From the NCBI GenBank assembly GCA_030535295.1, contig JAUMXK010000002.1:1-59060 (forward strand): a DNA stretch of 59,060 bases, in the 5' to 3' direction. The notes beneath the pieces are model-generated. The model saw only the letters and a program-made list of their open reading frames with translations. It ran no database searches and was not told the origin of the DNA. Position 1 is the first letter of the stretch. Each line of letters starts with the position of its first letter. Made by a program: the position numbers and the translations under genes. This stretch comes from Eubacteriales bacterium. GTDB lineage: Bacteria > Bacillota > Clostridia > Lachnospirales > Vallitaleaceae. Of the stretch, positions 3,470-38,214 are shown in pieces.

Positions 3470-3534
3470 AGGAATCAAAGGGTTGATTGGGCTTTTCCAT
3501 TTCGGAAAAGCCCAAATAGTATTTAGAGGAAAAG

Positions 3535-6007: not shown

Positions 6008-6013
6008 TCTTCT

Positions 6014-7909: not shown

Positions 7910-7947
7910 TCTTCTCTCCTTTCAAACTCACAACTTTCTCTAATGGT

Positions 7948-7977
7948 ACTTTAGCATAGATGGAAGGTGGAATGCAA
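7948..7977 (-). promoter_or_regulatory. Candidate promoter of the LacI-PfkB gene
   Basis: On the minus strand, TTGCAT (7977-7972) and TAAAGT (7953-7948) are separated by 18 bp, about 40 bp before the start codon. The match is moderate. The divergent gap 7910-8218 holds this promoter, an AT-rich upstream stretch and the importer promoter. Confidence 0.4.
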
Positions 7978-8117
7978 GAAATAAATTATAAGAGCTGATT
8001 TTTCTGATATCACAACCAACAAAAAGGATAATCGCCCAAAATAGAATAATAATATGTTGATTTTCCACAAACTTTGTCAAAAAATAAATAAAAAATATAC
8101 AAATTTATGAAAAAGTA

Positions 8118-8146
8118 TTGACAATCCCTTCAATAAGAAGTAAGAT
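8118..8146 (+). promoter_or_regulatory. Sigma-A promoter of the first nucleoside importer operon
   Basis: TTGACA (8118-8123) and TAAGAT (8141-8146) are 17 bp apart. An AT-rich UP-like block precedes it. The whole arrangement is repeated before the second BMP lipoprotein gene at 18718-18746 with identical hexamers and spacing. Confidence 0.88.
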
Positions 8147-8172
8147 GAATACATAACTAGGAAAAAGTTATA

Positions 8173-8186
8173 GGAAAACATTTTCC
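8173..8186 (+). promoter_or_regulatory. LacI-type operator, copy 1
   Basis: GGAAAACATTTTCC is a perfect 6+6 palindrome around a CA centre, typical of LacI/CcpA-type sites. It lies 26 bp downstream of the -10 box, a roadblock position, and inside the block GAAAAAGTTATAGGAAAACA, which is conserved exactly at copy 2. The divergent LacI-PfkB gene encodes the likely binder. Confidence 0.72.
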
Positions 8187-8218
8187 CTAAAATTTATCAA
8201 GAAAAAAGGAGAAAGCAA

Positions 8219-9274: not shown

Positions 9275-9284
9275 AGAGCGGAAT

Positions 9285-9315
9285 GGAGGTCTTTTCAAAG
9301 ACCTCCTTCTTTATT
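9285..9315 (+). terminator. Intercistronic hairpin after BMP gene 1 (attenuator-like)
   Basis: GGAGGTCTT pairs with AAGACCTCC around TTCA, followed by a T-rich but interrupted tract (TTCTTTATTT). It probably causes partial termination, giving more binding protein than ATPase and permease. Confidence 0.7.
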
Positions 9316-9403
9316 TGAGAGAGCGGCCGTGAAGTAAAATAGCCGAAAACCTCTTTCAAGAGAACATGGCTAACTTTAATCCAGCTCCTATAAGGAGGAT
9401 AGA

Positions 9404-10945
9404 ATGAGCGAATACATTGTGGAAATGAAAAATATTGTCAAATCTTTCGGTGAAGTTCGTGCCGTTCGGCATGGAGAATTTACCTTGAAAAAAGGGGAAA
9501 TTCATTCGCTGATAGGAGAAAACGGTGCGGGGAAGTCTACCATGATGAAACTGCTCTATGGGATGTACCCGATTGATGACGGTGAAATCTATATACGAGG
9601 GCAAATAATGCCCAGGCTGGAGCCGAGGATGGCAATCCAAATGGGAATTGGTATGGTTCACCAGGAGTTTATGCTCGTCAATGATTTGACCGTACTGGAA
9701 AATATTATTTTGGGTTTTGAGCCCAGAAAGGGCATTACCATAGATTTTGATAAGGCCAGAAAAGAAGTCGAGCAATACATCAAGCAGTATAAAATGGAAG
9801 TACAGCTCGATAAAAAGGTCGGCCAAATTTCGGTTGGTGAAGCGCAAAGAGTGGAAATCATCAAGACCCTGATGAGGGGAGCGGAAGTGATTATTTTGGA
9901 TGAACCGACCGCCGTACTTACTCCACAGGAAACCCAAAAATTATTTGAAATTCTGCGCAATCTGAAAGCAGAGCAAAAATCATTGGTTTTTATTTCGCAC
10001 AAGCTCAATGAAGTAATGGAAATATCCGACCGTATCAGTGTGATGCGGCAAGGCAATTATATCAGCACCGTCAAAAAAGAAGAAACCACACCGCTTGGTT
10101 TGACCAAGGATATGATAGGCAGAGAAGTCTTTTTGAATATTGAAAAGGATTACAGCAAAGCAGGAGAAAAAATACTGGAAGTGCAGGATGTTTGGATTCC
10201 CAGTCAAAAAGAGTCTTCCAAGATTCGAGGTCTTTCCCTTCATGTCAATGAAAGAGAAATTGTCGGCATTGCCGGCATTGACGGCAATGGGCAGTCTGAG
10301 CTGATTGAAGCCATTACGGGGCTACGTTTGGTGGAAAAAGGCAAGGTCATTTTAAATGGCAAAGACATCACCAATCAAAAGCCGAAAGCCATTCGCAATG
10401 CAGGAATGGCACATATTCCGGAAGATAGAAATGTCAGAGGCCTAAACAGACAAATGAGCATGGAAGAAAATATGATTGCTGTCGATATTGACAGTCCGAA
10501 GTTCAGCAAAGGCGCTATATTGGATATGGAATCAGGTGCACAGTACACCAAGCAAATGATTGAAAAATTTGATATTCGTCCGGCAGACCATCGCTTGCCG
10601 ACTTCCTCCCTTTCCGGTGGAAATGCGCAAAAAGTGGTAGTAGCCAGAGAAGTTTCCATGAAGAAAAAATTACTGGTTGCTTCCCAGCCGACCAGAGGTG
10701 TGGATATCGGAGCCATCGAAATCATTCGGAATACTCTGGAAGAGGCCAAGAAAGAAGGGGCCGGTGTTCTTTTGGTTTCTGCGGAACTGGAAGAAATCAT
10801 TTCTTTATCGGATCGTATTTTGGTCATGCATGAAGGAAAAATAACAGGAGAATTGCCGGCTCATGATGCCAATGAAAACAACTTGGGACTTTTGATGATG
10901 GGCGGCAAAGTAGAAGAAGATGTAGAAGGGAGAAAAGAGCCATGA
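9404..10945 (+). CDS. Nucleoside ABC importer ATPase, two fused ABC domains (importer 1)
   Basis: The sugar/nucleoside-type double ATPase has 513 residues. Domain 1 has Walker A GENGAGKST, signature ISVGEAQR and Walker B VIILDEPT. Domain 2 has the family-typical altered Walker A (GIDGNGQSE) and signature LSGGNAQK. It energises the two permeases encoded directly downstream. Its stop overlaps the next start (ATGA). GGAGG lies before the ATG. It is a paralogue of the ATPase at 20049. Confidence 0.95.
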   Translation: MSEYIVEMKNIVKSFGEVRAVRHGEFTLKKGEIHSLIGENGAGKSTMMKLLYGMYPIDDGEIYIRGQIMPRLEPRMAIQMGIGMVHQEFMLVNDLTVLENIILGFEPRKGITIDFDKARKEVEQYIKQYKMEVQLDKKVGQISVGEAQRVEIIKTLMRGAEVIILDEPTAVLTPQETQKLFEILRNLKAEQKSLVFISHKLNEVMEISDRISVMRQGNYISTVKKEETTPLGLTKDMIGREVFLNIEKDYSKAGEKILEVQDVWIPSQKESSKIRGLSLHVNEREIVGIAGIDGNGQSELIEAITGLRLVEKGKVILNGKDITNQKPKAIRNAGMAHIPEDRNVRGLNRQMSMEENMIAVDIDSPKFSKGAILDMESGAQYTKQMIEKFDIRPADHRLPTSSLSGGNAQKVVVAREVSMKKKLLVASQPTRGVDIGAIEIIRNTLEEAKKEGAGVLLVSAELEEIISLSDRILVMHEGKITGELPAHDANENNLGLLMMGGKVEEDVEGRKEP

Positions 10946-12054
10946 GTCAATCAATCCGAGGATTTGTAAAAATTAGCATGACTCTGCTATTGGTATTTTT
11001 AATCGGAGCGGTCTTTATCTTAATGATTGGAGAAAATCCGCTCAGTGCCTATCGGGCCGTACTAAAGGGTGCATTTGGCACCAGACTCGGCTTTGGCAGT
11101 ACCATTGCAGGTTTTACTCCGCTTCTTTTGACCTCTATTGCCTTTGCTGTAGCGGCAAAAGCAGGTGCCTTTAATGTCGGCGTAGAGGGAGAAGTTTGCT
11201 TAGGAGGCATTACCGCAGCCTATATCGGTATCAACTGGGGATTTTTGCCGAAACCTTTGTTGCTATTGGCTTGCTTTTTGGGAGCCATGGTGGTGGCAGG
11301 CTTGTGGGCATCCATTCCGGCAATGCTCAAGGCATATTATAATGTTTCGGAAGTTTGTGTGACGATTTTGATGAATACCGTGGCACTTTATATTGCTTCC
11401 TATCTGGTCAGTGGTCCGATGAGCGCCGGTACTGCCAATCCGCAGTCACATCCGGTACTGGTCACCCTACCGAAAATTATGAAACCGTCTTCAGCCAATG
11501 CAGGGGTGTTTATTGCCTTTGCCATTGTCATCTTGGTTATCTTTATGCTTTATAAAACCAAATGGGGTTACAAAATCCGCAGTGTCGGAAACAACCCTTT
11601 CCATGCTGATTATGTCGGAATTCCGTCCAAAAAAGTCTTTATCAACGCCATGATTTTATCCGGTGTACTGGGAGGGATTGCCGGATGTATTGAAGTTTTG
11701 GGTGTGCATGGATATTACCTTGATAACTTTGCCAAAGATTTAGGTACCAATGGTATGCTGGCAGCCTTAATCGTAAAATCCAATATGATTTTTACTCCGT
11801 TTATGGCATTTTTCCTGGGTGCTTTAAAATCCGGAGCCATGGCAATGCAACAATCCACCGGTGTACCGAAATCGATTGTCGATACCATTTCGGCCATCTT
11901 TATTATTGTGGCAACCATGGAATTATTATTCCAATTAAAGGGAAGACATTCCCTATTAGCGAAACTGAAAAAAAATACACCGACAGTTCATGCAGAAGGT
12001 CCGGAGGAAGAGGCAGCGAATGAAAGTCAAGAGAAAGAGAGGGAAACATTATGA
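10942..12054 (+). CDS. Nucleoside ABC importer permease, larger subunit (importer 1)
   Basis: This is a BPD_transp_2-type permease of 370 residues with about eight to ten hydrophobic helices and the typical segments KAGAFNVGVEGE and YKTKWGYKIRSVG. The charged C-terminal tail is short. It overlaps the ATPase gene and the next permease gene by 4 bp each, so the three are translationally coupled. It corresponds to the YufP/NupP class. Confidence 0.93.
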   Translation: MSQSIRGFVKISMTLLLVFLIGAVFILMIGENPLSAYRAVLKGAFGTRLGFGSTIAGFTPLLLTSIAFAVAAKAGAFNVGVEGEVCLGGITAAYIGINWGFLPKPLLLLACFLGAMVVAGLWASIPAMLKAYYNVSEVCVTILMNTVALYIASYLVSGPMSAGTANPQSHPVLVTLPKIMKPSSANAGVFIAFAIVILVIFMLYKTKWGYKIRSVGNNPFHADYVGIPSKKVFINAMILSGVLGGIAGCIEVLGVHGYYLDNFAKDLGTNGMLAALIVKSNMIFTPFMAFFLGALKSGAMAMQQSTGVPKSIVDTISAIFIIVATMELLFQLKGRHSLLAKLKKNTPTVHAEGPEEEAANESQEKERETL

Positions 12055-12986
12055 TGGAAAATTTAGCCAAGATTTTTAATATTTCTCTGATTTATGCGAC
12101 TTTCCGAGCCTCTACACCCATTATCTTTGCGGCCCTTTGTGCAGCGATTACTCAGCAGGCCAATATACTAAACATCGGAACGGAAGGCATTATGTTGGTG
12201 GGTGCTTTTACCGCTGTGACAGTCAGCTATTTTACGGGAAGCTGGATTGCCGGTGTACTGGCAGCGATGGTGGCGGGTGGTATCATCGCCATGATTATGG
12301 CAGTCGGACATATTCGATATAATTCGGAAATTTGTGCCATCGGTATGGGTATTAACTTACTGGCGATTGCCATTACCAAGTTTTTATTGCAAGTCATTTT
12401 CAAAACCAATGGTACTTTTTCCAGTCCCCAAATTGCTCCGATTCCCCGAATACATTTGCCGTTTTTGGAAAATGTACCGGTGCTCAATGACCTGTTGAAT
12501 GATTGGAGTTTGACGGAATGGTTTGTGATTGTCTTTATTATTTTGTTGCAATTTTTATTCTATAAAACGGTCTGGGGCTTGCGTTTGCGTGCAGTGGGAC
12601 AATTGCCTTTGGCAGCGCAAACTGCCGGTATTCATGTCAATGCGGTCAAATATCAAGCAATGTTTATTTCCGGAATTATCGGTGGATTGGCCGGTGCTCA
12701 TTTATCTCTGGGATACAGCAAACAATTTGTAGAAAACATGACCAATAGCCGTGGCTTTATGGGTGTTGCCGCCATGTATTTCGGTGGTGCCAATCCGGTT
12801 CTGACGGCAATCGGCTGCCTTTTATTCGGCTTTGCCGATTCGATTGGGGCAAGGCTTCAAGCGTATGGCTTTCCGGCTCAATTTGTCCTTATGATGCCAT
12901 ATATTGTAACGATTGCAGTACTGGGAGTGTCGATGTTTATCAAAATCAGAAGCCACAAGAAGAAAGAATCTTCGTTAATTGCCTAA
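12051..12986 (+). CDS. Nucleoside ABC importer permease, smaller subunit (importer 1)
   Basis: This is a second BPD_transp_2 permease of 311 residues, YufQ/NupQ class. It has the motif ILNIGTEGIMLVGAF near the N-terminus and YKTVWGLRLRAVGQ in the middle. It forms the heterodimeric channel with the preceding permease. The purine-rich 99-bp gap that follows leads into the first nucleoside hydrolase without a terminator. Confidence 0.93.
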   Translation: MMENLAKIFNISLIYATFRASTPIIFAALCAAITQQANILNIGTEGIMLVGAFTAVTVSYFTGSWIAGVLAAMVAGGIIAMIMAVGHIRYNSEICAIGMGINLLAIAITKFLLQVIFKTNGTFSSPQIAPIPRIHLPFLENVPVLNDLLNDWSLTEWFVIVFIILLQFLFYKTVWGLRLRAVGQLPLAAQTAGIHVNAVKYQAMFISGIIGGLAGAHLSLGYSKQFVENMTNSRGFMGVAAMYFGGANPVLTAIGCLLFGFADSIGARLQAYGFPAQFVLMMPYIVTIAVLGVSMFIKIRSHKKKESSLIA

Positions 12987-13085
12987 AGGCTTAGAAAAAC
13001 TTTTGACAAAAGGAGAAAAGTCGGAAAGAGAATATCGGCCGAAAAGGAATTGCCTTGAAAATAGGAAAATAGGAAGGAGATAGAA

Positions 13086-14021
13086 ATGGAAAAGAGAAAA
13101 ATAATATTGGATTGTGATCCGGGGCATGATGATGCGGTGGCGATAATGCTGGCAGCCAAACATCCTGCCATTGATTTGCTGGGGATTACAGTGGTAGCAG
13201 GCAATCAGACTCTCGAAAAAACGCAGCGCAATGCGGTCAATGTGGTGGAGCATTTGGGGCTTGAGGTTCCGGTTTATGCCGGCTGCGGTCGTCCGATTGT
13301 CAGAGAAAAAGTAATTGCCGGAGACATTCATGGTGAAACGGGATTAGACGGACCGGTCTTTGCACCACATAGCAGAGAGGTGGAAAAGGAACATGCCGTC
13401 AATTATATGATAAGAACATTGATGGCCTCGGACGGTGATATTACTGTAGTCACCACCGGCCCGATGACCAATTTGGCCATGGCAATGCGTATGGAGCCGA
13501 AAATTCTTTCCAAAATCAAACAAATTGTCCTGATGGGAGGCGCATATACCAATGGCAATGTCACACCGGCAGCAGAGTTTAATATTTTTGCGGATGCCGA
13601 TGCGGCACATATTTGCTTTAGCAGCGGAGTGCCGGTGGTGATGGTGGGGCTGGATGTGACACGAAAGGTACTTTGTTATCCGTCCGTAGTGGAGAGAATG
13701 AGTCATATCGGCAATTCGGCTTCACAACTTTTTGTAGACTTGATGGGGCATTTTTGTAAAACACAAAAAGAAATCTTTGGTTGGGATGGGGGGCCGCTAC
13801 ATGATCCACTGACCATTGCTTATTTGATTGATCCCGGTATTTTGACACTCAAGCCGATGCATTCGGAAATCGAGCATCGCAGCCTTCAGTCCTATGGCAG
13901 AACCAATTGTGATTACTTCGGTTATATGAAAAAAGAGCCGACGGCAGAGATTGCCATTGATGTGGATGTGGAAAAGTTTTGGGATTTGATAGAAGAAACC
14001 TTAGGGATGTATTCCTCTTAG
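13086..14021 (+). CDS. Nucleoside hydrolase 1 (IUNH family)
   Basis: It splits ribonucleosides into base and ribose. The N-terminal calcium site is DCDPGHDDA (residues 9-17), the form seen in RihA/RihB pyrimidine-type hydrolases. The middle motif is MGGAYTNGNVTPAAEFN, and the active-site His239 is present in LHDP. GGAGAT lies before the ATG. As the first enzyme after importer 1, it would act on imported nucleosides. Confidence 0.94.
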   Translation: MEKRKIILDCDPGHDDAVAIMLAAKHPAIDLLGITVVAGNQTLEKTQRNAVNVVEHLGLEVPVYAGCGRPIVREKVIAGDIHGETGLDGPVFAPHSREVEKEHAVNYMIRTLMASDGDITVVTTGPMTNLAMAMRMEPKILSKIKQIVLMGGAYTNGNVTPAAEFNIFADADAAHICFSSGVPVVMVGLDVTRKVLCYPSVVERMSHIGNSASQLFVDLMGHFCKTQKEIFGWDGGPLHDPLTIAYLIDPGILTLKPMHSEIEHRSLQSYGRTNCDYFGYMKKEPTAEIAIDVDVEKFWDLIEETLGMYSS

Positions 14022-14113
14022 AGTAAGGCAATGGCAGTAAAATAAAAGACTGTTCCGGGGAACGTGGAAAAGTTGAGTAAAAGACATGTCTTTTATCCAA
14101 TCATGAGAGGAGA

Positions 14114-15391
14114 ATGAAATTGAGAGATTTAAGAGAAGTGTTGCAAGAAAATCAGGAAAAATATATCCGGCATTTAAAAGAATTAGTGGCTATCGACACC
14201 CATGACTTAGGGCATGGCATTGATGGCGGTTTGGAAAAGGAAGGGCAGGATTATTTGATTGCCCTATTTGAGAAAATGAAGGCATCCTCGATTCTGGTTG
14301 ACCCGATGACCGAAGAGGCGATTGAAAAATGCTACCGGGAGCATCAGGAAGGCAATTTAAAGCACAATTACGACAATCGCTATAATGTCTATGCTGCTTT
14401 TGTCGGCAAGAAAGCGAAGAAATTGATGTTTAACGGCCATATTGATGTTATGCCGGCGGATAATGTTGAGGATTGGAGCAATCCTCCTTTTGAACCGGTG
14501 ATTGCGGACGGAAAAATGTATGGCAGAGGAACCGCCGATATGAAAGCTGGACTTATGGCTTCCATTATGGCAGTGCAGCTTTTAAAAGATGCCGGTTATG
14601 AAGAATTGCCGCTGGAAGTAGTAATTACTTCGGTTTGTGATGAAGAAGGCGGAGGAAACGGCTCCATGCAGGCTATCATGAGCGGTCAGAAGGCAGATGG
14701 TGTTGTCGTATGCGAAGGCACCAGCGATGAGCTGATTTTGGCACACATGGGCTTTATTTTCTTCAAAGTGACGGTCAAGGGCAAAGCTTGCCACTCCGGA
14801 GATAAGAAAAAAGGAGTGAGTGCCATTGAAAAAACGATAAAAATTATTGAAGCTTTAAAAGATAAGGAACACCAATGGCTTTTACAGTATAAGCATCCGC
14901 TTCTGCCACCGCCGAATTTGAATGTGGGAGTCATTAAGGGAGGAGATGCCGGCTCTACCGTAGCCGGAGAATGTGAATTTTCCACCTGTGTCCATTATCT
15001 TCCAAATCAAATGACACATGATCAAGTGGTGAGAGAGTTTACCGATGTGGTCATGCGAGTAGCCAAATCCGATGAATGGATGGAAAATCATCTTCCGGAA
15101 ATCGAAATATATCAGGCCGGAGGCGGTTTTGAAATGGAGAAAGAGCATCCTTTTGTCAAAGCCTTTGAAACAGGCTATCAAAGAGCGAGGGATAAGCAGG
15201 TCAAAATTGTCGGTTCCCCGGCAGGATGTGATTCCAGGTTGTGGAAAAATATTGCCAAGTCACCGACCATTCAATTCGGCCCCGGTCATTTGGCACAATG
15301 TCATGGAATTGATGAATGGGTCAGCATAGAAGATTATCTGGAAAGTATTTTGATATATGCCAATCTGATTTTGGCATTTGGAGAAGAATAG
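14114..15391 (+). CDS. M20-family metallohydrolase (ArgE/DapE-like), copy 1
   Basis: This is a 425-residue zinc hydrolase with metal ligands in FNGHIDVMP, GRGTADMKAG, CDEEGGG and AQCHGIDE, plus a dimerisation (lid) domain in the middle. Family members cleave N-acyl, N-carbamoyl or peptide bonds. Placement between a nucleoside hydrolase and a ribokinase is unexpected for a peptidase and suggests a ring-opened or acylated base derivative as substrate (inference). ATG 14114 sits very close to GAGAGGAGA; TTG 14120, two codons later, has better spacing and may be the true start. Confidence 0.85.
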   Translation: MKLRDLREVLQENQEKYIRHLKELVAIDTHDLGHGIDGGLEKEGQDYLIALFEKMKASSILVDPMTEEAIEKCYREHQEGNLKHNYDNRYNVYAAFVGKKAKKLMFNGHIDVMPADNVEDWSNPPFEPVIADGKMYGRGTADMKAGLMASIMAVQLLKDAGYEELPLEVVITSVCDEEGGGNGSMQAIMSGQKADGVVVCEGTSDELILAHMGFIFFKVTVKGKACHSGDKKKGVSAIEKTIKIIEALKDKEHQWLLQYKHPLLPPPNLNVGVIKGGDAGSTVAGECEFSTCVHYLPNQMTHDQVVREFTDVVMRVAKSDEWMENHLPEIEIYQAGGGFEMEKEHPFVKAFETGYQRARDKQVKIVGSPAGCDSRLWKNIAKSPTIQFGPGHLAQCHGIDEWVSIEDYLESILIYANLILAFGEE

Positions 15392-15468
15392 GGACGTTTC
15401 GCAATAGGAAGGAAAAGGAAACTTGATTTTGTAAGGCATAGGCTAGGCTTTACAAAAGATAACGCATA

Positions 15469-15506
15469 GAAATTATAAGTAATAGGAGAAATTATAAGTA
15501 ATAGGA
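15469..15506 (+). repeat. Tandem 19-bp duplication carrying the ribosome-binding site
   Basis: GAAATTATAAGTAATAGGA occurs twice back to back, at 15469-15487 and 15488-15506. Each copy carries a Shine-Dalgarno core, and the second is followed at once by GG and then the start at 15514. A small hairpin (15431-15453) lies just before it. Confidence 0.9.
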
Positions 15507-15513
15507 GGAAAAA

Positions 15514-16263
15514 ATGGGTAAAAAAATTTTATTGGCAGGCGAATCTTGGATGAGTTATATCACACATGTAAAGGGTTTTGACACTTTTTATACTTCTGTC
15601 TATGAATCCGGAGAAAAGTATTTAAAGGAGGTTTTGGTAGGGGCAGGTCATGATTTTGAATTCATGCCGAATCACTTGGCAATGGACCATTTCCCATTTA
15701 CCTTGGAAGAATTGATGCAATATGATGTCATCATTCTCTCCGACATCGGTGCCAATACCTTGCTTTTACCGACGGCAACCTTTACCAAGAGTCAAGTCCG
15801 TCCGAATCGTTGCGATTTACTGAAAGAATATGTTTTAAAGGGCGGCAGCCTTTTGATGGTGGGTGGATATATGACATTTTCCGGTATTGACGGTAAGGGG
15901 AAATGGCAAGATACGGCGGTACAAGATATTCTTCCGGTCAAAGTGCTGCCAACGGATGACCGTATGGAATACTGTCAAGGCATAGAGCCAAAACCGGTCA
16001 AGGAACATTTCATACTGGACGGTGTCGGTCTGAATTGGCCGAAAGTATTGGGATATAATAAGACGGTTGCCAAAGAAGAAGCGGAAGTGATTGCTAAAGT
16101 GGGAGAAGATCCTTTTATTGCTTTGGCTGAATATGGGGAAGGCCGTAGTGCCGCTTTTACGACGGATTGTGCACCGCACTGGGCACCGGCAGAATTTTGC
16201 GAATGGGACGGATATGGTAAAATCTTCTTGAACTTGGTAAAATGGTTAACGAAAGAAGCTTAG
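15514..16263 (+). CDS. ThuA/GATase1-like protein of unknown activity (PF07090 type)
   Basis: This 249-residue protein resembles the family annotated as putative glutamine amidotransferase (GKKILLAGESW start, DVIILSDIGANT, GGSLLMVGGYMTFSG, C-terminal TTDCAPHW). At the place where class I amidotransferases carry the nucleophile Cys it has GGYMTFSG with no Cys, so amidotransferase activity is unlikely. Relatives of the ThuA fold are linked to sugar metabolism. It lies between an M20 hydrolase and a ribokinase in a nucleoside operon. I would not assign a reaction. Confidence 0.8.
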   Translation: MGKKILLAGESWMSYITHVKGFDTFYTSVYESGEKYLKEVLVGAGHDFEFMPNHLAMDHFPFTLEELMQYDVIILSDIGANTLLLPTATFTKSQVRPNRCDLLKEYVLKGGSLLMVGGYMTFSGIDGKGKWQDTAVQDILPVKVLPTDDRMEYCQGIEPKPVKEHFILDGVGLNWPKVLGYNKTVAKEEAEVIAKVGEDPFIALAEYGEGRSAAFTTDCAPHWAPAEFCEWDGYGKIFLNLVKWLTKEA

Positions 16264-16286
16264 ATAATAAAGAATAGGGTGAAGAA

Positions 16287-17180
16287 ATGAAAATATTAAA
16301 TTTTGGTTCCTTAAATATTGATTATGTCTATTCAGTAGAGCATTTTGTAAGAAAAGGGGAAACAATTTCTTCGCATCAATTGGAAGTGTTCAGCGGTGGG
16401 AAGGGATTGAATCAATCCGTTGCCATGGGCAGGGCAGGAGTGGAAGTTTATCATGCCGGTGCCATCGGCAAAGACGGAGAGAATTTATTGGAGCTTTTAA
16501 AAGAAGCAGGTGTCAATGTTGATTATGTGGAGGTTTTGGAAAAAACCAAATCCGGCAATGCCATTATTCAAAGGGATGCAAGCGGAGATAACTGCATTAT
16601 CCTTTATGGAGGAGCCAATCAGGAAATCAGCCAAGAGCAGGTAGACAATGTGCTGGCACATTTTTCAGCCGGAGATTTTTTGGTGTTGCAAAATGAAATC
16701 AACGAAATGCCTTATATCATGGAAAAAGCACATCAAAAGGGGATGAAAATCGTCCTCAATCCTTCTCCGATGAATGAAAAAATCTTGCAAATGCCGCTGG
16801 ATTTTGTAGATTATTTTATCTTGAATGAAATTGAGGCCAAGGAGATTTTGGGAGCAGCTCAGGACGGAAAGGCTGCAGGGAAGGAATTATTGGAGCGATT
16901 GCACCAAAAGTTCGAAAAGGCCAAAATTGTCCTGACACTTGGTGAGGAAGGCTCTTTGTATGCGGATGAAAAAGAGCGAGTTTGTCAAGGTATTTACCAA
17001 ACAAAGGTTCAAGATACGACGGCTGCCGGTGATACCTATACCGGTTATTTTATGGCCGGTGTGGTGGCAGGGCTTTCCATCCGGGAATGTATGGATTTGG
17101 CAGCCAAGGCATCTGCAATTTCTGTTTCCCGATTGGGGGCAGCTCCTTCGATACCCAAGATGGAGGAGGTCAGAAATTAA
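16287..17180 (+). CDS. Ribokinase-like PfkB sugar kinase
   Basis: It has 297 residues with the N-terminal NFGSLNIDYVY, the ribose-binding SGGKGLNQSVAMGRAG and the catalytic motif DTTAAGDTYTGYF, all close to ribokinase. The likely reaction is ATP-dependent phosphorylation of ribose freed by the nucleoside hydrolases, feeding the pentose phosphate pathway. It is 23 bp after the previous gene and 17 bp before the next, so it is inside the operon. Another nucleoside-linked sugar or nucleoside itself is possible. Confidence 0.9.
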   Translation: MKILNFGSLNIDYVYSVEHFVRKGETISSHQLEVFSGGKGLNQSVAMGRAGVEVYHAGAIGKDGENLLELLKEAGVNVDYVEVLEKTKSGNAIIQRDASGDNCIILYGGANQEISQEQVDNVLAHFSAGDFLVLQNEINEMPYIMEKAHQKGMKIVLNPSPMNEKILQMPLDFVDYFILNEIEAKEILGAAQDGKAAGKELLERLHQKFEKAKIVLTLGEEGSLYADEKERVCQGIYQTKVQDTTAAGDTYTGYFMAGVVAGLSIRECMDLAAKASAISVSRLGAAPSIPKMEEVRN

Positions 17181-18746: not shown

Positions 18747-18772
18747 GAGTACATAGCCGAGAAAAAGTTATA

Positions 18773-18786
18773 GGAAAACATTTTCT
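18773..18786 (+). promoter_or_regulatory. LacI-type operator, copy 2
   Basis: GGAAAACATTTTCT lies 26 bp after the -10 box, exactly the geometry of the site at 8173-8186. The palindrome has one changed outer base. It is probably bound by the same LacI-PfkB regulator. Confidence 0.7.
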
Positions 18787-18811
18787 TACAAAAAGTAGAA
18801 AGGAGCAAAAG

Positions 18812-26760: not shown

Positions 26761-26808
26761 TTTGCAGAAATGGCAAAGGGGACAGAAAACGAGGAAGAAG
26801 ATAAGAAG

Positions 26809-26838
26809 AAAGGAGCAAAGATGAAAGGAGCAAAGATG
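26809..26838 (+). repeat. Tandem duplication of a ribosome site plus start codon
   Basis: AAAGGAGCAAAGATG appears twice in a row, giving two in-frame ATGs (26821 and 26836), each with a well-spaced AAAGGAG. The gene therefore has two equally good starts five codons apart. Confidence 0.9.
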
Positions 26839-27834
26839 AAACATATCATTTTGGATATTGATTCGGTAGGAGATGATATGCTGGCAGTGCTTTATGCGGC
26901 ACATCATCCGGATATCGATATTTTGGGGATTACTACCGTCAACGGAGCATGCGGCAGCATTGAGCAGGCAAATCATGTTGCCTTGAAAATGGTGGAGTTG
27001 ACAGGAAAAGAAATTCCGGTCTATTCCGGAGCGGCAGAGATGTTAAATCCGAGAAAAGATTCTGTAGACGGGGATCCGGTCAATTTTGAAGAGGTGCTTC
27101 GCCCCAAACTGGGAGAGCGATTGGATAAATTTAATGAGGTGATGTCGCCAACCGCTCGAAAAGTAGAGGAGATGAAAGCAGAGGACTTTATCATACAAAT
27201 GGCATATCAATATGAGAAAGAGTTGGTTGTAGTCACGACCGGTCCAACCACCAATCTGGCAAAAGCTTTATGTAAGGATAAAACGATTGCGGAGAAAATC
27301 GGAAAGGTCTATATGTTGGGCGGAAACTTTCAAATTGCAGGCAATATTACGCCGGCATCCGAATATAATATCTGGGCGGATCCGGAAGCGGCACAAATTA
27401 TTTTGCGTTCGGATTTGCAGGTGGTCTTGGTGCCTTTGGATATTTGTGAGAACAATGAATTTGCCGATGGCATGATGACAAGGGATCATTTGGCGGATTT
27501 GAGTGTGGGAGCAGGGCCGGTTTGTCGATTTATCATGGATAAATTTCCGATTTACATTGATATTTGGAGAGAATTTTTCCAATTGGCGGGTTTTCCTATG
27601 GACGATGTTATTACGGTTGCTTTGGTAGCCGAGGAAGAACTTTGCACCTATAGTGAGCCGGTTTTTGTAGATATTGAATTAAACGGTGATATCACCAGAG
27701 GTATGACGGTGGCTTATTTCGGGCATCAAATTGTGCACAACGTCAGAAAGGAACATCGCAATGTCCGGATTGCACAATCGGTTCAAGGAAAGAAATTTAT
27801 GAATTTATTTGTGGAAACTTTGAAAGGAAAGTAA
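26836..27834 (+). CDS. Nucleoside hydrolase 3, divergent active site
   Basis: It has the IUNH fold with MLGGNFQIAGNITPASEYNI and WADPEAA, but two key sites differ. The N-terminal metal motif reads DIDSVGDD instead of DxDPGxDD, though the Asp ligands are kept. The usual active-site His is Asp256 (PMDDVIT in place of LHDPLT). Altered chemistry or substrate is likely, though weak or lost activity cannot be excluded. Start 26836 or 26821 (duplicated ribosome site). It begins a run of three hydrolases before an ECF transporter. Confidence 0.88.
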   Translation: MKHIILDIDSVGDDMLAVLYAAHHPDIDILGITTVNGACGSIEQANHVALKMVELTGKEIPVYSGAAEMLNPRKDSVDGDPVNFEEVLRPKLGERLDKFNEVMSPTARKVEEMKAEDFIIQMAYQYEKELVVVTTGPTTNLAKALCKDKTIAEKIGKVYMLGGNFQIAGNITPASEYNIWADPEAAQIILRSDLQVVLVPLDICENNEFADGMMTRDHLADLSVGAGPVCRFIMDKFPIYIDIWREFFQLAGFPMDDVITVALVAEEELCTYSEPVFVDIELNGDITRGMTVAYFGHQIVHNVRKEHRNVRIAQSVQGKKFMNLFVETLKGK

Positions 27835-27896
27835 AAGCAAAGAAGAAAAAAGCGAATCAAAGAGGAAAAGCAACCTAATAAAAGAAAGGGAAACCG

Positions 27897-28865
27897 ATGA
27901 ATACAAAGCAAAAAGTAATTATGGATGTCGATCCGGGGATAGATGATTCTCTGGCCATTGTGTTTGCCGGTATGGCAAAGCAGATTGAGCTGCTGGGACT
28001 GACAGTAGTCAGTGGCAATATTGAGGTCAATCAGGCAGCACGAAATGCGATAAAAGCATTGCAGATGTGTGGAAGAGAGAATGTGCCGGTTTATAAAGGA
28101 GAAGCTCTGCCGCTGAAGAGGGAATACTTTGATGCTACAGATACACATGGCAAGGATGGTGTTGGAGAGAACTTTTTTCAAGTAGAGGAGCGCTGTGAAA
28201 CGATGTCCGCCGATGATTTCATCATTCGGGAGCTGACACAGAACCCTGGAGAAATCACCATTTTAGCGCTTGGGCCGCTAACCAATTTAGCAAAGGTGAT
28301 AGAAAAGGATGCACAGGCATTAAAAAAAGCAAAACAAATCATTATCATGGGCGGTGCAGCTACCATTCACGGAAACTGCTCGCCGGTGGCGGAATATAAT
28401 TTTTGGGTTGATCCGCATGCAGCCGCTTTCTTCTTTGCAAGAGATTATGAAAATGTGGTTTTGGTGCCACTGGATGTGACCTATTCTATTTTACTGACAC
28501 CGAATATGCGTGAGATGGTTCGCCAGTTGGGTACGGAATTATCGGAATATGTCTATCAGATTACCGGTTTTTATGTAGATTTTCATTGGGCACAGGAGAG
28601 AACTTTGGGCTGCATTATCAATGATCCTCTTACCGTGGCATATTTACTGAAACCGGAGATTTTGCAATTGCTGCCGGCCGGTGTCCAAGTGGAAACAGAG
28701 GGTCTTTGTCTGGGACAATCCGTATGTGACTTTTTTAAGGAGAATGCCAATACCAAGGTGGCCAGAGGAGTGAAGGCAGAGGAGTTTTTCCGGCTGTTTT
28801 GGCTGACGATTTTTCCGGAAAAGGAAAGAGATATCCTGCTGATGTATCGTAAGGGATATTTATAG
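27897..28865 (+). CDS. Nucleoside hydrolase 4, active-site His replaced by Asn
   Basis: It has a canonical calcium motif DVDPGIDDS and MGGAATIHGNCSPVAEYN, but the C-terminal motif is INDP with Asn242 where His normally donates the proton to the leaving base. The length (322) is normal. Together with hydrolase 3 it suggests that this cluster handles bases that leave without His assistance, such as modified purines. AAAGGGA lies before the ATG. Confidence 0.9.
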   Translation: MNTKQKVIMDVDPGIDDSLAIVFAGMAKQIELLGLTVVSGNIEVNQAARNAIKALQMCGRENVPVYKGEALPLKREYFDATDTHGKDGVGENFFQVEERCETMSADDFIIRELTQNPGEITILALGPLTNLAKVIEKDAQALKKAKQIIIMGGAATIHGNCSPVAEYNFWVDPHAAAFFFARDYENVVLVPLDVTYSILLTPNMREMVRQLGTELSEYVYQITGFYVDFHWAQERTLGCIINDPLTVAYLLKPEILQLLPAGVQVETEGLCLGQSVCDFFKENANTKVARGVKAEEFFRLFWLTIFPEKERDILLMYRKGYL

Positions 28866-28982
28866 TGATAGGGAGGTGTTTCGCAGGCGGAGAACTTGGA
28901 AAAGGGATGGAAAAGATAAGCCGGAATCGGGAAAGTGAATTGACAGGAAGGAAAAGTTTTTTCTAAGCGTGAGGAGTAATTT

Positions 28983-29957
28983 ATGAGAAAAGTAATTATT
29001 GATACGGATCCGGGAATAGATGATGCTTTTGCCATTGTGGCTACATTGTTAGCTCCGGATGTCGAGGTTTTGGGGATTTGCAGTGTAGGAGGCAACAAAG
29101 GAATTGAAACGACCACGGATAATTCTCTGGCATTGGCAGAGTGGCTTGGACTGCCGGCAAAGGTATATAAAGGTGCGGACAAACCTTTAAAGGAAGACAG
29201 TGAAGCGGCTCATACACCCGATGAAGTTCACGGCAGGAATGGCCTTGGAGGGGTTCATTTGCCATTGGATGCGTCTAGGCTGTCCGAGCAGTCTGCGGTA
29301 GATTTTATCTTGGAAATGGCAGAGAAATACCCGAATGAGGTCGAGATTTTTGCCTTGGGGCCACTTACCAATCTTGCCCTTGCCATTGAAAAAAAGGAAT
29401 CTTCTATGAAAAAACTGAAGGCCATTTACTCTATGGGGGGCGGTATTTTAAAGGGAAATGTGACTCCGGTAGCAGAGTTTAATTACTGGTTTGATCCGGA
29501 AGCGGTGGCAAAGGTTTTGGAGATTACCAATAGGGTACCTTTTTATATGGTAGGTTTGAATGTAACCCACCAGATTGTTTTTGACTTCAACGACATTTTC
29601 TTTTTGGAAAAAGAAGGAGGAGAAAAAGGAAAGCTGCTGGCACAAATGCTTTACCCATATATGGATTTATATTGGAAGGAAGCAAAAATCGTCGGTGGTG
29701 TTATTCACGATTTGACAGCAGTATTATTTGCCCTTTACCCTGAACTGACAAAGCCTGAGGATATATGTCATTGCAATCTGAGGATGGCAACTGAAGGAAT
29801 TACCAGAGGACAAAGCGTGGCGGATTTGGTAGATTCATGGCATTTGGAAAAAAATGCCTATGTTGTAATGGGGATGGACGGCAATGCCTCGAAAGAAAAG
29901 TTTTTTGAGCTACTGATTCCGGAAAAGGTCGAACTTTACCGAAAATATGTTTTATAA
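28983..29957 (+). CDS. Nucleoside hydrolase 5 (IUNH family)
   Basis: The calcium motif is DTDPGIDDA, the middle motif MGGGILKGNVTPVAEFN, and His242 is kept in IHDLTA (Leu replaces the usual Pro). Residues DEVHGRNGLGG match the substrate-loop region. It is the last hydrolase before the ECF genes, which start 63 bp later. Confidence 0.92.
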   Translation: MRKVIIDTDPGIDDAFAIVATLLAPDVEVLGICSVGGNKGIETTTDNSLALAEWLGLPAKVYKGADKPLKEDSEAAHTPDEVHGRNGLGGVHLPLDASRLSEQSAVDFILEMAEKYPNEVEIFALGPLTNLALAIEKKESSMKKLKAIYSMGGGILKGNVTPVAEFNYWFDPEAVAKVLEITNRVPFYMVGLNVTHQIVFDFNDIFFLEKEGGEKGKLLAQMLYPYMDLYWKEAKIVGGVIHDLTAVLFALYPELTKPEDICHCNLRMATEGITRGQSVADLVDSWHLEKNAYVVMGMDGNASKEKFFELLIPEKVELYRKYVL

Positions 29958-30020
29958 CGACGGACAAAAGTTTTACAGAAGGTCATAGTGAAAGCCAAAC
30001 CAAGAATAGGAGGAATTACC

Positions 30021-30596
30021 ATGAAAAAAATGTCATTAATGAGTATTTTGTTGTTTCCGATTGCGATTGCTATCAACTTTGTAGGAGGGCAAATTGTAGC
30101 GCTATTGAGATTACCTGTTTTCCTGGACTGTATCGGTACGGTATTGGTCTCTGCTCTGACAGGACCGATTGGCGGTATCATCGTCGGTGTTTTGACCAAC
30201 TTGATTTTGGGAATTACCGCTCCGACTTTTATTCCGTATGCCATTGTTTCGGCAGCCATTGGTTTAGTAGCCGGAGTTTGTGCCAAAAAAGGGATGTTTA
30301 AGACTGTAAAATCCACGCTGATTGTCGGTGTTTTTGTTTGGATTGTGACACAATTGACAGCCATTCCGATTACGACTCTTGTATTTGGCGGAGTAACCGG
30401 TAGCGGTACTTCTTTTATTACCGGATTTTTTGTCAGCACCGGACAGGGATTATTCGAAGCGGTATTTACCACCAGTATCTTGACGGAAACCGTAGATAAA
30501 TTCATTACGGTATTGATTGCTTATTTCTTGATTAAATCCATTCCGGCCAGAACATTGATGAAATTCCCATTGGGAGAAATCTATATGAAAGAATAA
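30021..30596 (+). CDS. ECF transporter substrate-binding (S) component
   Basis: A hydrophobic 191-residue protein with about six helices, including LPVFLDCIGTVLVSALTGP and LILGITAPTFIPYA, a pattern seen in ECF S components found beside nucleoside hydrolases. It binds the substrate and docks on the T and A subunits encoded next. The start is ATG 30021 with AGGAGG at 30008-30013. Substrate is inferred from context: a nucleoside, base or queuosine-type molecule released or used by hydrolases 3-5. Confidence 0.85.
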   Translation: MKKMSLMSILLFPIAIAINFVGGQIVALLRLPVFLDCIGTVLVSALTGPIGGIIVGVLTNLILGITAPTFIPYAIVSAAIGLVAGVCAKKGMFKTVKSTLIVGVFVWIVTQLTAIPITTLVFGGVTGSGTSFITGFFVSTGQGLFEAVFTTSILTETVDKFITVLIAYFLIKSIPARTLMKFPLGEIYMKE

Positions 30597-30650
30597 AGAT
30601 AAAAAGCTTATCGGAAATAGAAATTGTATTCGTAGAAAGGGAGAATCCGT

Positions 30651-31409
30651 ATGAAAAAGAAGATGATTTCCGAGATTTATCCGATTACCAAATTGTGGGT
30701 AGTGGCTACTTTGATTCTTATCGGATTTTTATTTCGGACTTATGTATATGGCTATTTAATCGTTTTGCCATTTACCATTTTGGTTGCGTTTTTAAATGGC
30801 AGCGGAAAAGCCTATCTGAAAAAAGTGATTGCCGCTATGCTCTTTTTTGTGGTGTTTTACCTGGCATTTAAAATTATGCTGGACGTATCGGAATCCAAGG
30901 TGCTGTTTCAGTGGAAATTTATTACGATAAAACAAGAAGGTCTCGTTTCCGGACTCAATGAATCCGGATTGATTATGGTCTTTGCAGCTACGTTTCTGAT
31001 ATTTTTTGAAACTACGGATATGCTGGATTTCATGATTTCTTTAAATAAATTGGGATTGTCGCATGTCGGTTCTTATGTGGCACTTTCCACCTTGCAAATG
31101 ATTCCGGAAATGGGGAAAAAAAGCAAGGTCATTATGCAGGCGCAACAAGCAAGAGGTATCGAAACGACAGGCAATGTATTGACCAGAATGAAGGCCTTTA
31201 TTCCGGCTATCGGACCGCTGATTATTTCTTCGATTACGGATTTGGAAGATAGGGCAGTTACTTTGGAAGTAAGGGCATTTTCCAGTGAAAATCCGAAGAG
31301 CTTTTATCGGGAACTCCCGTTTCGAACAAGGGATAGGGTGATAATCGGAGTGTTCAGCTTATTGCTGGTGATTTGCATTGCATGGAGGGTATTACTATGG
31401 CTCAAATAG
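30651..31409 (+). CDS. ECF transporter transmembrane (T) component, EcfT/CbiQ family
   Basis: It has 252 residues with several N-terminal helices and the ATPase-coupling region containing QAQQARGIETTGN (the ARG motif of EcfT). AAAGGGAG precedes the ATG. Its end overlaps the first ATPase gene by 13 bp. Confidence 0.92.
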   Translation: MKKKMISEIYPITKLWVVATLILIGFLFRTYVYGYLIVLPFTILVAFLNGSGKAYLKKVIAAMLFFVVFYLAFKIMLDVSESKVLFQWKFITIKQEGLVSGLNESGLIMVFAATFLIFFETTDMLDFMISLNKLGLSHVGSYVALSTLQMIPEMGKKSKVIMQAQQARGIETTGNVLTRMKAFIPAIGPLIISSITDLEDRAVTLEVRAFSSENPKSFYRELPFRTRDRVIIGVFSLLLVICIAWRVLLWLK

Positions 31410-32269
31410 AAATCAAAGAGGTAAGTTTTCAATATCCTTTGACGGATTTTCCGGCCTTGGATAAGATTAGTCTGTCTGTTGAAAAAGGAGAGTTTTTGGC
31501 GCTTATCGGTAAGAACGGAGCCGGAAAGACTACTTTGTGCAATGCCATTCGGGGCTTAATTCCGCATTTCCAAAAAGGGAAACTCGAAGGAGAAATCACC
31601 ATTGACGGCCTAAGTACGCAGGAAATGACCTTGGGCAATTCGGCCGGAAAAGTGGGATTGGTTTTTCAGAATCCTTTTATTCAGGTTAGCGGAGTGAAGC
31701 AGACGGTATTTGAAGAAATTCTATTCGGCTTGGAAAATTTGGGGGTATGTCGGTCAGAAATGATTGAGAGAACCGAGGACATCATCCGTCAGCTAAAAAT
31801 TGATTATTTGAGAGATAAGAATCCTTTGGAATTATCCGGTGGGCAAAGGCAGAGAGTAGCGATTGCTTCCGTCTTGGTGATGAATCCAGAAATCCTGATT
31901 ATTGATGAGCCGACTTCGCAATTAGACCCTATCGGTACAGAAGAGGTATTTGAAACGATTTCCCTGATGAAAGAAAAGAAAATCACGATTATTTTAGTGG
32001 AGCAAAAGATTAATTTGATTGCAGAATATGCAGAAAAGGTAGCGGTTATGGACGAAGGCAAAATCGTTCTTTATGGTGAGGCCAAAGATATTTTGACCAA
32101 TCCGGAGATTAAGCGTTATGGTTCGCCTTTGCCGGAGGTGACCGAGTTTTGCTATCAATTCATGAAAAAACGTGGACAGATACTCGATAGGCTTCCTATT
32201 ACATTGGAGGAAGCTAAGCGAGTATTGGCAGGGATGGCTGCCAAGCAGAGGAAAGAGGGGTTACAATGA
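31397..32269 (+). CDS. ECF transporter ATPase, first subunit
   Basis: It has Walker A GKNGAGKTT, a full LSGGQRQR signature, Walker B ILIIDEPT and the ECF-typical Q-loop region. ATG 31397 is supported by GGAGGG at 31384-31389 and lies within the end of the T gene. It pairs with the next ATPase as an asymmetric heterodimer. Confidence 0.93.
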   Translation: MAQIEIKEVSFQYPLTDFPALDKISLSVEKGEFLALIGKNGAGKTTLCNAIRGLIPHFQKGKLEGEITIDGLSTQEMTLGNSAGKVGLVFQNPFIQVSGVKQTVFEEILFGLENLGVCRSEMIERTEDIIRQLKIDYLRDKNPLELSGGQRQRVAIASVLVMNPEILIIDEPTSQLDPIGTEEVFETISLMKEKKITIILVEQKINLIAEYAEKVAVMDEGKIVLYGEAKDILTNPEIKRYGSPLPEVTEFCYQFMKKRGQILDRLPITLEEAKRVLAGMAAKQRKEGLQ

Positions 32270-33060
32270 GCGGAATTCAATTAGAGCAGGTCAGTTTTCG
32301 ATATGATAACGGTTTTGTGGCAGTGGAAAATGTCAACATGGACATTAAGAAAGGCGAAAAGGTTGCCATTGTCGGTCAAAATGGTGCAGGAAAAACGACG
32401 ACGGTCAAGCTGATGAACGGACTTTTGCGACCTTTTACTGGTAGGGTTTTGGTGGACGGCGAGGATATTGCAACCAAAACAACTGCCACAGTTTCCCGTA
32501 AGGTGGGATATGTTTTTCAAAATCCGGGAGACCAGATTTTCAATAAAGATGTTTATTCTGAGATTGCGTATTCACCAAAATATATGAAACTGGATAATAC
32601 AGAAGTAGACAGACGGGTGCAGGAAGCGGCGGAGCTTTGCGGTATCAAAAAATATTTAAAGATTAATCCTTATGAGCTTCCGTTTTCGCTTCGGAAATTT
32701 GTGACCATTGCTTCGGTGATTGCTATGGGTTGTGAATATATTATTTTAGATGAACCGACGGCAGGACAGGATTTGGAAGGGCTTCAGCTGCAAAAAAGAA
32801 TTATTGATGAGTTGATTGCACAGGGAAAAACAGTGGTGACGATTACTCATGATATGGAGTTTGTGTTGAATCACTTTTGCAGAGTGATTGTCATGGCCAA
32901 TAAAAAGGTAGTGGGAGATGGGAATGCCAAGGAGATTTTTTGGGATTTGGATATTTTAAAACAAGCAGATTTGAAACAGCCGAATATTTTGCAATTGGCA
33001 GATTATCTCGGAATTCAAGGAATAACGAATGTTTCGGAATTGATTGGGGCACTCGAATGA
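32266..33060 (+). CDS. ECF transporter ATPase, second subunit, with degenerate signature motif
   Basis: Walker A GQNGAGKTT and Walker B YIILDEPTAGQD are intact, but the signature reads LPFSLRKF instead of LSGGQ. Some two-gene ECF ATPases show this asymmetry, leaving one consensus and one degenerate ATP site. The gene overlaps the previous one by 4 bp (ATGA), so a 1:1 complex is likely. Confidence 0.92.
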   Translation: MSGIQLEQVSFRYDNGFVAVENVNMDIKKGEKVAIVGQNGAGKTTTVKLMNGLLRPFTGRVLVDGEDIATKTTATVSRKVGYVFQNPGDQIFNKDVYSEIAYSPKYMKLDNTEVDRRVQEAAELCGIKKYLKINPYELPFSLRKFVTIASVIAMGCEYIILDEPTAGQDLEGLQLQKRIIDELIAQGKTVVTITHDMEFVLNHFCRVIVMANKKVVGDGNAKEIFWDLDILKQADLKQPNILQLADYLGIQGITNVSELIGALE

Positions 33061-34205
33061 CAAGAAAAACAAAATTTGTAATTATTTTCTTTATGTTTCT
33101 TACTTTTTTTACAGTATTGGAAATGAATATCGTCTTGCCTTTGGCACCGTCGATTGCTAAGCTTTATAGTATTCCACTGGCCAATATTTCACTTTTAAAT
33201 CTGGGATATTCGCTGGCCGGATTATTTGCACCGGTATTCGGTTATTTTTCTGATAGATACCATATAAAATGGGTGTTGCTCGCAAGTCTTATTCTTTTTT
33301 GTGCAGGATGTTTGATGATGGTGCTTGGCAAGGGGGTATTTACTTTTGTTGCCGCCCGTTCGGTGATTGGTCTTAGTTATTATGCGATTGTCGGATTGAC
33401 TGCCTCTTATACTGCCGGAGCCGTCAGTGAAGAAAAGATAGGCTATGTAGGAGGTTGGTATAAATTGGCATTTGGTATGGGAATTGTCATTTCGCCGATG
33501 CTGGGAGCCTTTATGATGGAAACTTTCGGATTTTCCGCTATTTACATTTTTCTGCTGTTTGCAGGGATTTTAGGAGCTATCGGAGTTTTTTTCCTGGAGT
33601 CGATAGAAGAAAAGTCTGAGAAAATTACTTTGCAAGAGGTTAGGTCGTTATTGAAAGAAAGCAAGGTCAAGGTCTACGTCCTGATTACATTTGCTTTGTC
33701 GGTACCGGCGGTCTTGTTTTACAATTATTACTCCATTCATTTGGAAACATTGGGGTTTCATCAAATTGAAATTGGCGAAATGTATACCTATGTTTCTGCC
33801 GGCAGTGTCATAGCTGCTATTTTGATTATTTTATGGAGCGAAAAAATAGGAAAACTGAAAATGGCTATTTTCGGCTTACTTCTTTGTGTAGTGTTTATGC
33901 TGCCTTTGGCACTGGGGCAAAAGATTATTTTGGTATTATCCTCGATTTTCTTCGGCATTGGTTATGATATGATTTGGGGATTGCATTTTCCGCTTAGTTC
34001 TTTGATTTATAAAAGAGGAAACAGTACCTTTTTGACGATTCTCAGTCTATCTATGGCAGTGACCAATGTGGTTACCAATGTTACAGCACCACTCATTTTC
34101 GGAAAAGGCGGATTTTCATTCAATATTTTTATCAGTTTTTTGGCTCTGCTTTTGACTTTGGTCTTGTATCTTTGGGAGAATAAGGCGGAGCTGAAAAAGA
34201 AGTAG
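33057..34205 (+). CDS. MFS transporter
   Basis: About 382 residues and 12 helices; the loop after TM2 has YFSDRYHIKW, the MFS motif A. The start at ATG 33057 overlaps the stop of the ECF ATPase gene, making it the last gene of the nucleoside region. It may export a base or another end product of nucleoside cleavage (inference from position). No strong terminator follows; the dispersed repeat begins right after the stop. Confidence 0.88.
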   Translation: MTRKTKFVIIFFMFLTFFTVLEMNIVLPLAPSIAKLYSIPLANISLLNLGYSLAGLFAPVFGYFSDRYHIKWVLLASLILFCAGCLMMVLGKGVFTFVAARSVIGLSYYAIVGLTASYTAGAVSEEKIGYVGGWYKLAFGMGIVISPMLGAFMMETFGFSAIYIFLLFAGILGAIGVFFLESIEEKSEKITLQEVRSLLKESKVKVYVLITFALSVPAVLFYNYYSIHLETLGFHQIEIGEMYTYVSAGSVIAAILIILWSEKIGKLKMAIFGLLLCVVFMLPLALGQKIILVLSSIFFGIGYDMIWGLHFPLSSLIYKRGNSTFLTILSLSMAVTNVVTNVTAPLIFGKGGFSFNIFISFLALLLTLVLYLWENKAELKKK

Positions 34206-36966: not shown

Positions 36967-37920
36967 TTACAAAGCCAGGATTTCTTCTTCGCTTAATTTC
37001 GTATATCTCATAATTTTGTCGATAGCAAAGCCGTCTTCCTTCATTTCACGGGCAATGGCGATTCGTTCCGCTTTTTCACCTTCTAGTCTACCTTCCTGTC
37101 TGCCCTCTTGTCTGCCTACCAATCGTCCACGTTTTTCTAATCTATCAATAATTGTTTCCATGGTGTCGCCTCCTTCTTGTTTTATTAAATCTATGATATC
37201 GCTATCCATAAAGTCTTTACGAAAGGCACTGATATAGGCGATTGTTCTTTCGCCGTATTCAAAAAAGACTTCATCTTCAAGCTGACGGATGCCTTTGAAG
37301 ATTTCAAGAACTTCATGAATAAAATGTTGTTTTTCGGGTTCATAGATTGCCCGAATCATTCTTAAATATAGCTCCAACTTTAATTGATGCCCTTTCAGTT
37401 TTTCTTTATTTTCCAAAGAAAAATCGTAAAACAATGCCTCATAAAGGGGAAGATATTTTAATAATTCTTTTGGCGTATCAGGATGTAATACATCCTTTAG
37501 TTGTAAAAAATTCCACTTTTTTACCCCCTGATAAAAAATTAGGGGGAGTACCGGACAAATCTTATGGTTTGTTCGAAGCTGATTGTCCCAAATTTCTACA
37601 ATATAGCGCAGGATTTGAATACTGGTATGAATGTCTGTATAACTCTTATGCTCCATAAGAAACAGTAAAAAGCTGTCTTGATTTGCAATTTTAATGCGAT
37701 AAAGTAGATCGGCTTCCTGTAACTTGAGTTTGGGACTAATGCTTTTAGGTTCAACCAGAAGAAGGGAATCATATTCCACCAGCTCACTGATTTTTATCGG
37801 TAAATATGACTGCAAAAAGTCTTTTATGACTTCGGGCTTACTCATATTTGCCTTAAAAAAGGCATCATGCGGCTTGAAAATTGATTTTTTTTCGGTTTTA
37901 TTTTGACGTTTCGGATTCAT
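36967..37920 (-). CDS. Rpn-family PD-(D/E)XK nuclease (Transposase_31-like)
   Basis: About 317 residues beginning MNPKRQNKTEKK. The nuclease core shows QEADLLYRI and LLFLMEHKSYTD, fitting an acidic residue followed by ExK. The C-terminal GRQEGRQEGRLEGEK run is typical of Rpn proteins, which cut DNA and promote recombination rather than transpose. The start at 37920 has GAGGG upstream; a TATAAT box (minus strand, 37939-37934) lies so near that the leader would be under 10 nt. No inverted repeats or target duplications are seen, so it is a stand-alone gene. Confidence 0.87.
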   Translation of the reverse strand: MNPKRQNKTEKKSIFKPHDAFFKANMSKPEVIKDFLQSYLPIKISELVEYDSLLLVEPKSISPKLKLQEADLLYRIKIANQDSFLLFLMEHKSYTDIHTSIQILRYIVEIWDNQLRTNHKICPVLPLIFYQGVKKWNFLQLKDVLHPDTPKELLKYLPLYEALFYDFSLENKEKLKGHQLKLELYLRMIRAIYEPEKQHFIHEVLEIFKGIRQLEDEVFFEYGERTIAYISAFRKDFMDSDIIDLIKQEGGDTMETIIDRLEKRGRLVGRQEGRQEGRLEGEKAERIAIAREMKEDGFAIDKIMRYTKLSEEEILAL

Positions 37921-38214
37921 CGTTTCTACCCTCATTATATAGTAAATTTGCAAATTTTTCCAGTAAAAGAAAAATGGATTACAAAATCTGCATAAAAAGA
38001 GTATAGCAATTGAGAAACGAAAAGTCGTCCTCTAGTTGTGGAATTTAGTAATCTTTTTATAAATAAAATATTATAAATATATAAAAAAGAGCAATTGTAG
38101 TTTCGGATTTCCGTGCATGGTTTTAGGCGTAGTCTTTGCAGTTTGCCGTAATGCATTGTATGAAATCTGTATCTAACAACAGCTCTTTTATTGTATTTTA
38201 TTATTTACAAAATC

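Follow-up and report, generated by a model that had tools for sequence, protein, structure and literature searches.

The genes at positions 26836-34205 of the DNA considered here raise a simple question: which compound does their energy-coupling factor (ECF) transporter bring into the cell? The window, meaning the whole 59,060-nucleotide stretch that was analysed, is one contig (JAUMXK010000002.1) of the 2.46 Mb draft genome, 89.6% complete, of a member of the Eubacteriales (GCA_030535295.1), and a first-pass annotation had proposed that it holds a queuosine-type salvage module of hydrolases, an ECF importer and a major facilitator superfamily (MFS) carrier. The gene block as first described is real. 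Gene positions and family matches in Pfam and NCBIfam, clear for the hydrolases, the T and A components and the MFS carrier, bear out eight genes on the plus strand: three PF01156 hydrolases, designated 3 (26836-27834, in an open reading frame that begins at 26770), 4 (27897-28865) and 5 (28983-29957), followed by the ECF S component (30021-30596), a CbiQ-family (PF02361) T component (30651-31409), the ATPases A (31397-32269, from a chosen ATG 24 bases inside the listed open reading frame) and A' (32266-33060), and a PF07690 MFS carrier (33057-34205). Their junctions are tight, with gaps of 62, 117, 63 and 54 bp and then overlaps of 13, 4 and 4 bp. A' groups with other ECF ATPases, and an S fold, a CbiQ-type T component and two ECF ATPases encoded together mark the set as a dedicated group I ECF module. 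The answer we favour, at a probability of about 0.6, is that the module is dedicated to importing ribonucleosides, the predicted substrate, which are then hydrolysed and catabolised in the cytosol.

As the S component matched only two family models, each below its cut-off (NF045596 at 132 bits against 180, and PF12822 at 23.5 bits), its identity was checked by structure. In comparisons of an AlphaFold2 model (pLDDT 87.9, pTM 0.85, 39 sequences) with the PDB, the top 19 entries were all ECF S components (Z 11.6-15.0), namely those of thiamine, riboflavin, folate, biotin and pantothenate transporters, and the next protein was the unrelated Lnt (Z 9.5); as modelled, the window S adopts the ECF S fold. 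NF045596, the "CD3073 family putative ECF transporter S component", is its best family match and spans its full length, below the curated cut-off. The name gives no substrate, since QrtT proteins, the S components of queuosine salvage, match the same model at 86-110 bits, and a literature search for CD3073 found no substrate and no relevant publication.

A scan of 84,980 genomes turned up at least 538 encoded relatives of S, and 80 loci were kept. They come from Bacillota, Chloroflexota, Thermodesulfobacteriota, Actinomycetota, Mycoplasmatota and Pseudomonadota, plus metagenome-assembled genomes labelled SAR324, so that the family is large, uncharacterised and present in at least six phyla. 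A T component and one or two ATPases usually lie 3' of S wherever the contig extends far enough, and in most loci of the window S clade an MFS carrier again follows A'. On one SAR324-labelled contig (L021), S is 54% identical to the window S and groups with those of Halanaerobiales and other Bacillota, and the contig may have been placed in the wrong bin. Two further loci (L095 and L096, about 2500-16500) contain two complete ECF modules of the family in tandem within one apparent operon, together with phosphorylase, hydrolase, M20, amidohydrolase-like and ThuA-like genes.

The neighbours of S point towards nucleosides and ribose. A hidden Markov model search of 1.34 Mb found 72 PF01156 hydrolase genes in 48 of the 80 loci, the nearest lying within 5 kb of S in every one of the 48, and the association is not due to chance. 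Ribokinase genes occur in 31 of the 80, and uridine-phosphorylase-like, LacI, MFS, M20 and ThuA-like genes recur (neighbour names were read from the sequence alone where no library scan was made). In Lederbergia the order is LacI, hydrolase, S, T, A, A' and ribokinase, then a purine riboswitch, 3' of which are genes for a purine permease and an adenine deaminase, both putative. One species offers a different hint: macro-domain-like and ADP-ribosylglycohydrolase-like genes lie directly 5' of S-T-A-A' (L018, 5511-8355), and PF01156 enzymes are able to cleave nicotinamide riboside, so that the imported compounds might be nicotinamide riboside or breakdown products of ADP-ribose, cleaved to the base vitamin. 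The second locus with this arrangement (L068) is the same contig region and NAD genes were not noticed at other loci, and we give this idea only the slimmest of chances.

The hydrolases themselves carry a second line of evidence. All three match PF01156 at E <= 3.3e-69, and they belong to the same superfamily as RihA and RihC of Escherichia coli, although all fall outside the RihA and RihC branches. The residue before the last calcium-binding Asp is His in hydrolase 5, Asn in hydrolase 4 (GCIINDPL) and Asp in hydrolase 3. Hydrolases 4 (ND) and 5 (HD) score as PF01156 enzymes and have the N-terminal DxDxGxDD and the terminal calcium-binding Asp; hydrolase 3 is also over the cut-off and keeps its Asp residues, but its fingerprint deviates (DIDSVGDD), its loop His is replaced by Asn and the His of HD by Asp, and the catalytic His is therefore gone at both positions. 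The active sites, which the first-pass annotation had called unusual, are so in hydrolases 3 and 4 and not in hydrolase 5, which retains the catalytic His-Asp of RihA and RihC. Hydrolase 3 is a long branch in the hydrolase tree and has no counterpart in the ECF operon of a complete congener (L016); its specificity may be new, or it may be an inactive partner.

Over the analysed S loci, this motif is HD in 34 hydrolases, ND in 37 and AD in six, and of the 24 loci that carry at least two hydrolases, 22 hold both a His type and an Asn type (18 HD-ND pairs of Chloroflexota type and four of the window type). A single clade for the Asn types was rejected (p 6e-7), and the pairing, newly observed here, must therefore have arisen more than once. 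Hydrolases without the His might suggest that the ECF system serves methylated RNA nucleosides, 7-deazapurine ribosides or other modified or unusual ribosides, with ordinary nucleosides left to the two BMP importers and RihA-type hydrolases that the window already holds. His241 gives a proton to the leaving base, but nucleoside hydrolases of Sulfolobus solfataricus that lack it use ordinary nucleosides (PMC8910321), so Asn alone is no proof of a modified substrate; purine and uridine genes also adjoin relatives of S, and a module for unusual ribosides is in our view doubtful.

How close the module stands to queuosine salvage was judged against QueK-QrtT-QueL references chosen independently of the window: across 391 genomes of the class, these were the genes lying 3' of preQ1-I riboswitches. 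The kinship is genuine. QrtT proteins are 28-39% identical to the window S (E 3e-31 to 3e-18), a similarity that unites QrtT and the S family as homologues in a single superfamily. Hydrolase 4 and its counterparts at three loci (L016, L019 and L026) form the sister group (support 100/99) of a 17-row clade of mainly QueK proteins (99/98), sharing its His-to-Asn change, and the ten top-scoring matches that hydrolase 4 has in the 391 genomes, itself excluded, all adjoin preQ1 riboswitches. As in the operon of Clostridioides difficile type, a PF01156 hydrolase stands beside a homologous S component. The differences are equally plain. Hydrolase 4 falls outside the QueK clade and hydrolase 5 in a separate, ECF-linked one, and a 100/100 branch splits the 12 QrtT proteins from 43 other S components, with the window S on the far side, in a clade numbering ten or eleven. 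A comparison of S with QrtT, as proposed by the first-pass annotation, upheld the homology but not membership of the QrtT clade. Where QrtT attaches within the S family is less firm, as a tree that joins the window S clade to QrtT is neither supported nor rejected (approximately unbiased test, p 0.18). The QrtT-conserved residues F/W24, D67, Y72, Q152 and D156 are Q24, A67, P72, S152 and E156 in the window S (window S numbering). A search that picked up its positive controls detected no preQ1 riboswitch next to S in the window and the S loci searched, and QueL, present in all seven QrtT genomes, was found in none of 32 S-family genomes (the draft, the complete congener and 30 others; two 20-bit fragments were ignored). 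Unlike the C. difficile-type operon, the module also has dedicated T, A and A' components and a second, His-type hydrolase, and sits among ribokinase, LacI and BMP genes. It is homologous to, yet distinct from, the queuosine salvage system.

Could the ECF transporter nevertheless import queuosine, and hydrolase 4 release queuine for tRNA modification? The first-pass annotation saw neither tgt nor a lyase gene in the window, and this held: tgt lies elsewhere in the genome, and QueL was not found in the draft. The window S also groups with no vitamin transporter, so that neither this nor a lack of tgt, the two outcomes that the annotation had named as fatal to a queuosine role, was encountered. 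The presence of tgt (found also in G021, searched as G434) was dropped as a discriminating test, as all 40 S-family genomes and all 14 control genomes carry it. QueA is present in the draft genome, the complete congener (G020) and G021, and no real QueC was found in these three, counting matches above 200 bits and setting aside matches of 20-34 bits as unrelated ATP-pyrophosphatases; lacking QueC, they need a precursor. The genome search turned up tgt and QueA but no QueC, and a genus of this kind must scavenge, as must all ten genomes of the window S clade. QueT and YhhQ were not found in the draft genome, a point in favour of queuosine import, but the congener carries QueT, a canonical preQ1 transporter, as do 21 other genomes of the 39 searched, and YhhQ was over its cut-off in nine; preQ1-type transporters thus occur in most of these genomes. 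This is a weak test, because four of the genomes with QueT are among the seven QrtT genomes. The TGT of the organism has DEC and GLAVGE motifs, which agree with the Cys158 and Val233 conserved in bacterial enzymes that use preQ1 (PMC3660597). With a preQ1-type TGT, QueA and no QueL, freed queuine would be a dead end for the cell. Taken with the position of S outside QrtT, the missing riboswitch and the linkage to ribose and nucleoside catabolism genes, this makes queuosine salvage for tRNA improbable, even though the closest kin of S and hydrolase 4 are QrtT and QueK; of the queuosine-type module first proposed, the homology stands and the function is disfavoured. A variant would be the import of a 7-deazapurine riboside usable by such a TGT, for example preQ1 riboside, from which hydrolase 4 would free preQ1 directly and the QueL lyase would be unnecessary. 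It is quite a long shot; if true, the salvage of queuosine precursors would have a second route, not described before, one that would fit genomes with tgt and QueA but without QueC and QueL.

The genomic setting returns the argument to ribonucleosides. In the congener (L016), a LacI-ribokinase fusion (8083-9987) is divergent from an operon of hydrolase 4, hydrolase 5, S, T, A, A' and MFS carrier, 3' of which lie a BMP-type ATP-binding cassette (ABC) importer, a hydrolase, M20, ThuA-like, ribokinase and second M20 genes, and then pyruvate kinase. The window has the same fusion, a RbsR-like LacI-type repressor joined to a full ribokinase domain, on the minus strand at 6014-7909, and a ribokinase-like PfkB kinase on the plus strand at 16287-17180 (246 bits, cut-off 300). 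A search for a LacI operator with a central CG gave none that convinced, and a palindrome with a central CA, AGGAAAACATTTTCCT, was found instead, 5' of both congener operons with 0-1 mismatches (the copy before the hydrolase-ECF operon is at 10216 of L016) and 5' of both BMP operons of the window with one mismatch (as AGGAAAACATTTTCCC at 8172-8187 for the first, and a second copy at 18772-18787). With up to three mismatches on both strands, the window has seven matches where 2.45 were expected, and L016 four where 0.6 were; promoter matches were no more frequent than in shuffles. It is not far-fetched to regard the palindrome as a putative operator, to which the LacI-ribokinase fusion would bind, and the module looks embedded in a nucleoside/ribose regulon. 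It may be that the fusion detects its own signal or produces it. The BMP importers, with their RihA-type hydrolase clusters, share the palindrome and the genomic island with the ECF module and presumably do a similar job, although they belong to an unrelated transporter class, built of a substrate-binding lipoprotein and two permeases.

Ribonucleoside import is thus supported by the hydrolases at 48 of 80 loci and ribokinase at 31, the uridine-phosphorylase-like genes and LacI regulators, the purine neighbours in Lederbergia, the congener setting with its common palindrome, the complementary His/Asn pairs, and the lack of QueL and of a preQ1 riboswitch. In the mechanism we envisage, the S protein would bind a nucleoside outside the cell and the T component and the A and A' ATPases would power its uptake; hydrolases 4 and 5 would cleave different classes of nucleoside to ribose and base; ribokinase, as a separate gene or in the LacI fusion, would capture the ribose; and the bases would be reused or exported, perhaps via the MFS carrier. 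The fusion, resembling a ribose repressor, would control the ECF module together with the BMP-type importers. Several observations pull the other way. ECF transporters are known as importers of vitamins and metals, usually micronutrients. The nearest relatives with an experimentally known role carry queuosine precursors, and the missing QueC in all ten genomes of the window S clade is the pattern expected of queuosine scavengers and the best remaining argument for queuosine salvage. Hydrolases were not found near S at 32 of the 80 loci, some of them on short contigs. Finally, no copy of the palindrome was detected ahead of the window's ECF operon, in which the only site, with three mismatches, is at 28949, between hydrolases 4 and 5.

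Some further gene associations were noted. Beside ECF or BMP nucleoside importers, two genes recur together (14114-16263 in the window; L018, L095, L096 and L174): one for an ArgE/DapE-like deacylase of the M20 family, the other for a ThuA-like protein of about 248 residues that no NCBIfam model matches. A small protein resembling the PPC/DUF296 domain lies immediately 5' of S or of a hydrolase at four loci of Chloroflexota and Hafnia (L030, L031, L092 and L093). At 36967-37953 the window also carries a transposase-like gene of the Rpn/PD-(D/E)XK type, whose product has an internal GRxEG repeat close to the C-terminus; a related gene adjoins the module of L018.

If ribonucleosides are indeed the substrate, they would be a new nutrient class for ECF transporters, with a family in at least six phyla feeding them to hydrolysis and ribose catabolism. 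No paper describing ECF import of ordinary nucleosides turned up in the literature searched. The pairs of His-type and Asn-type enzymes, which arose repeatedly and independently beside one importer family, lend themselves to testing as an example of convergent division of labour at a single catalytic position. The kinship with QueK and QrtT would suggest a common origin of queuosine salvage and general systems that import and cleave nucleosides, and would caution against naming genes qrtT by homology alone.

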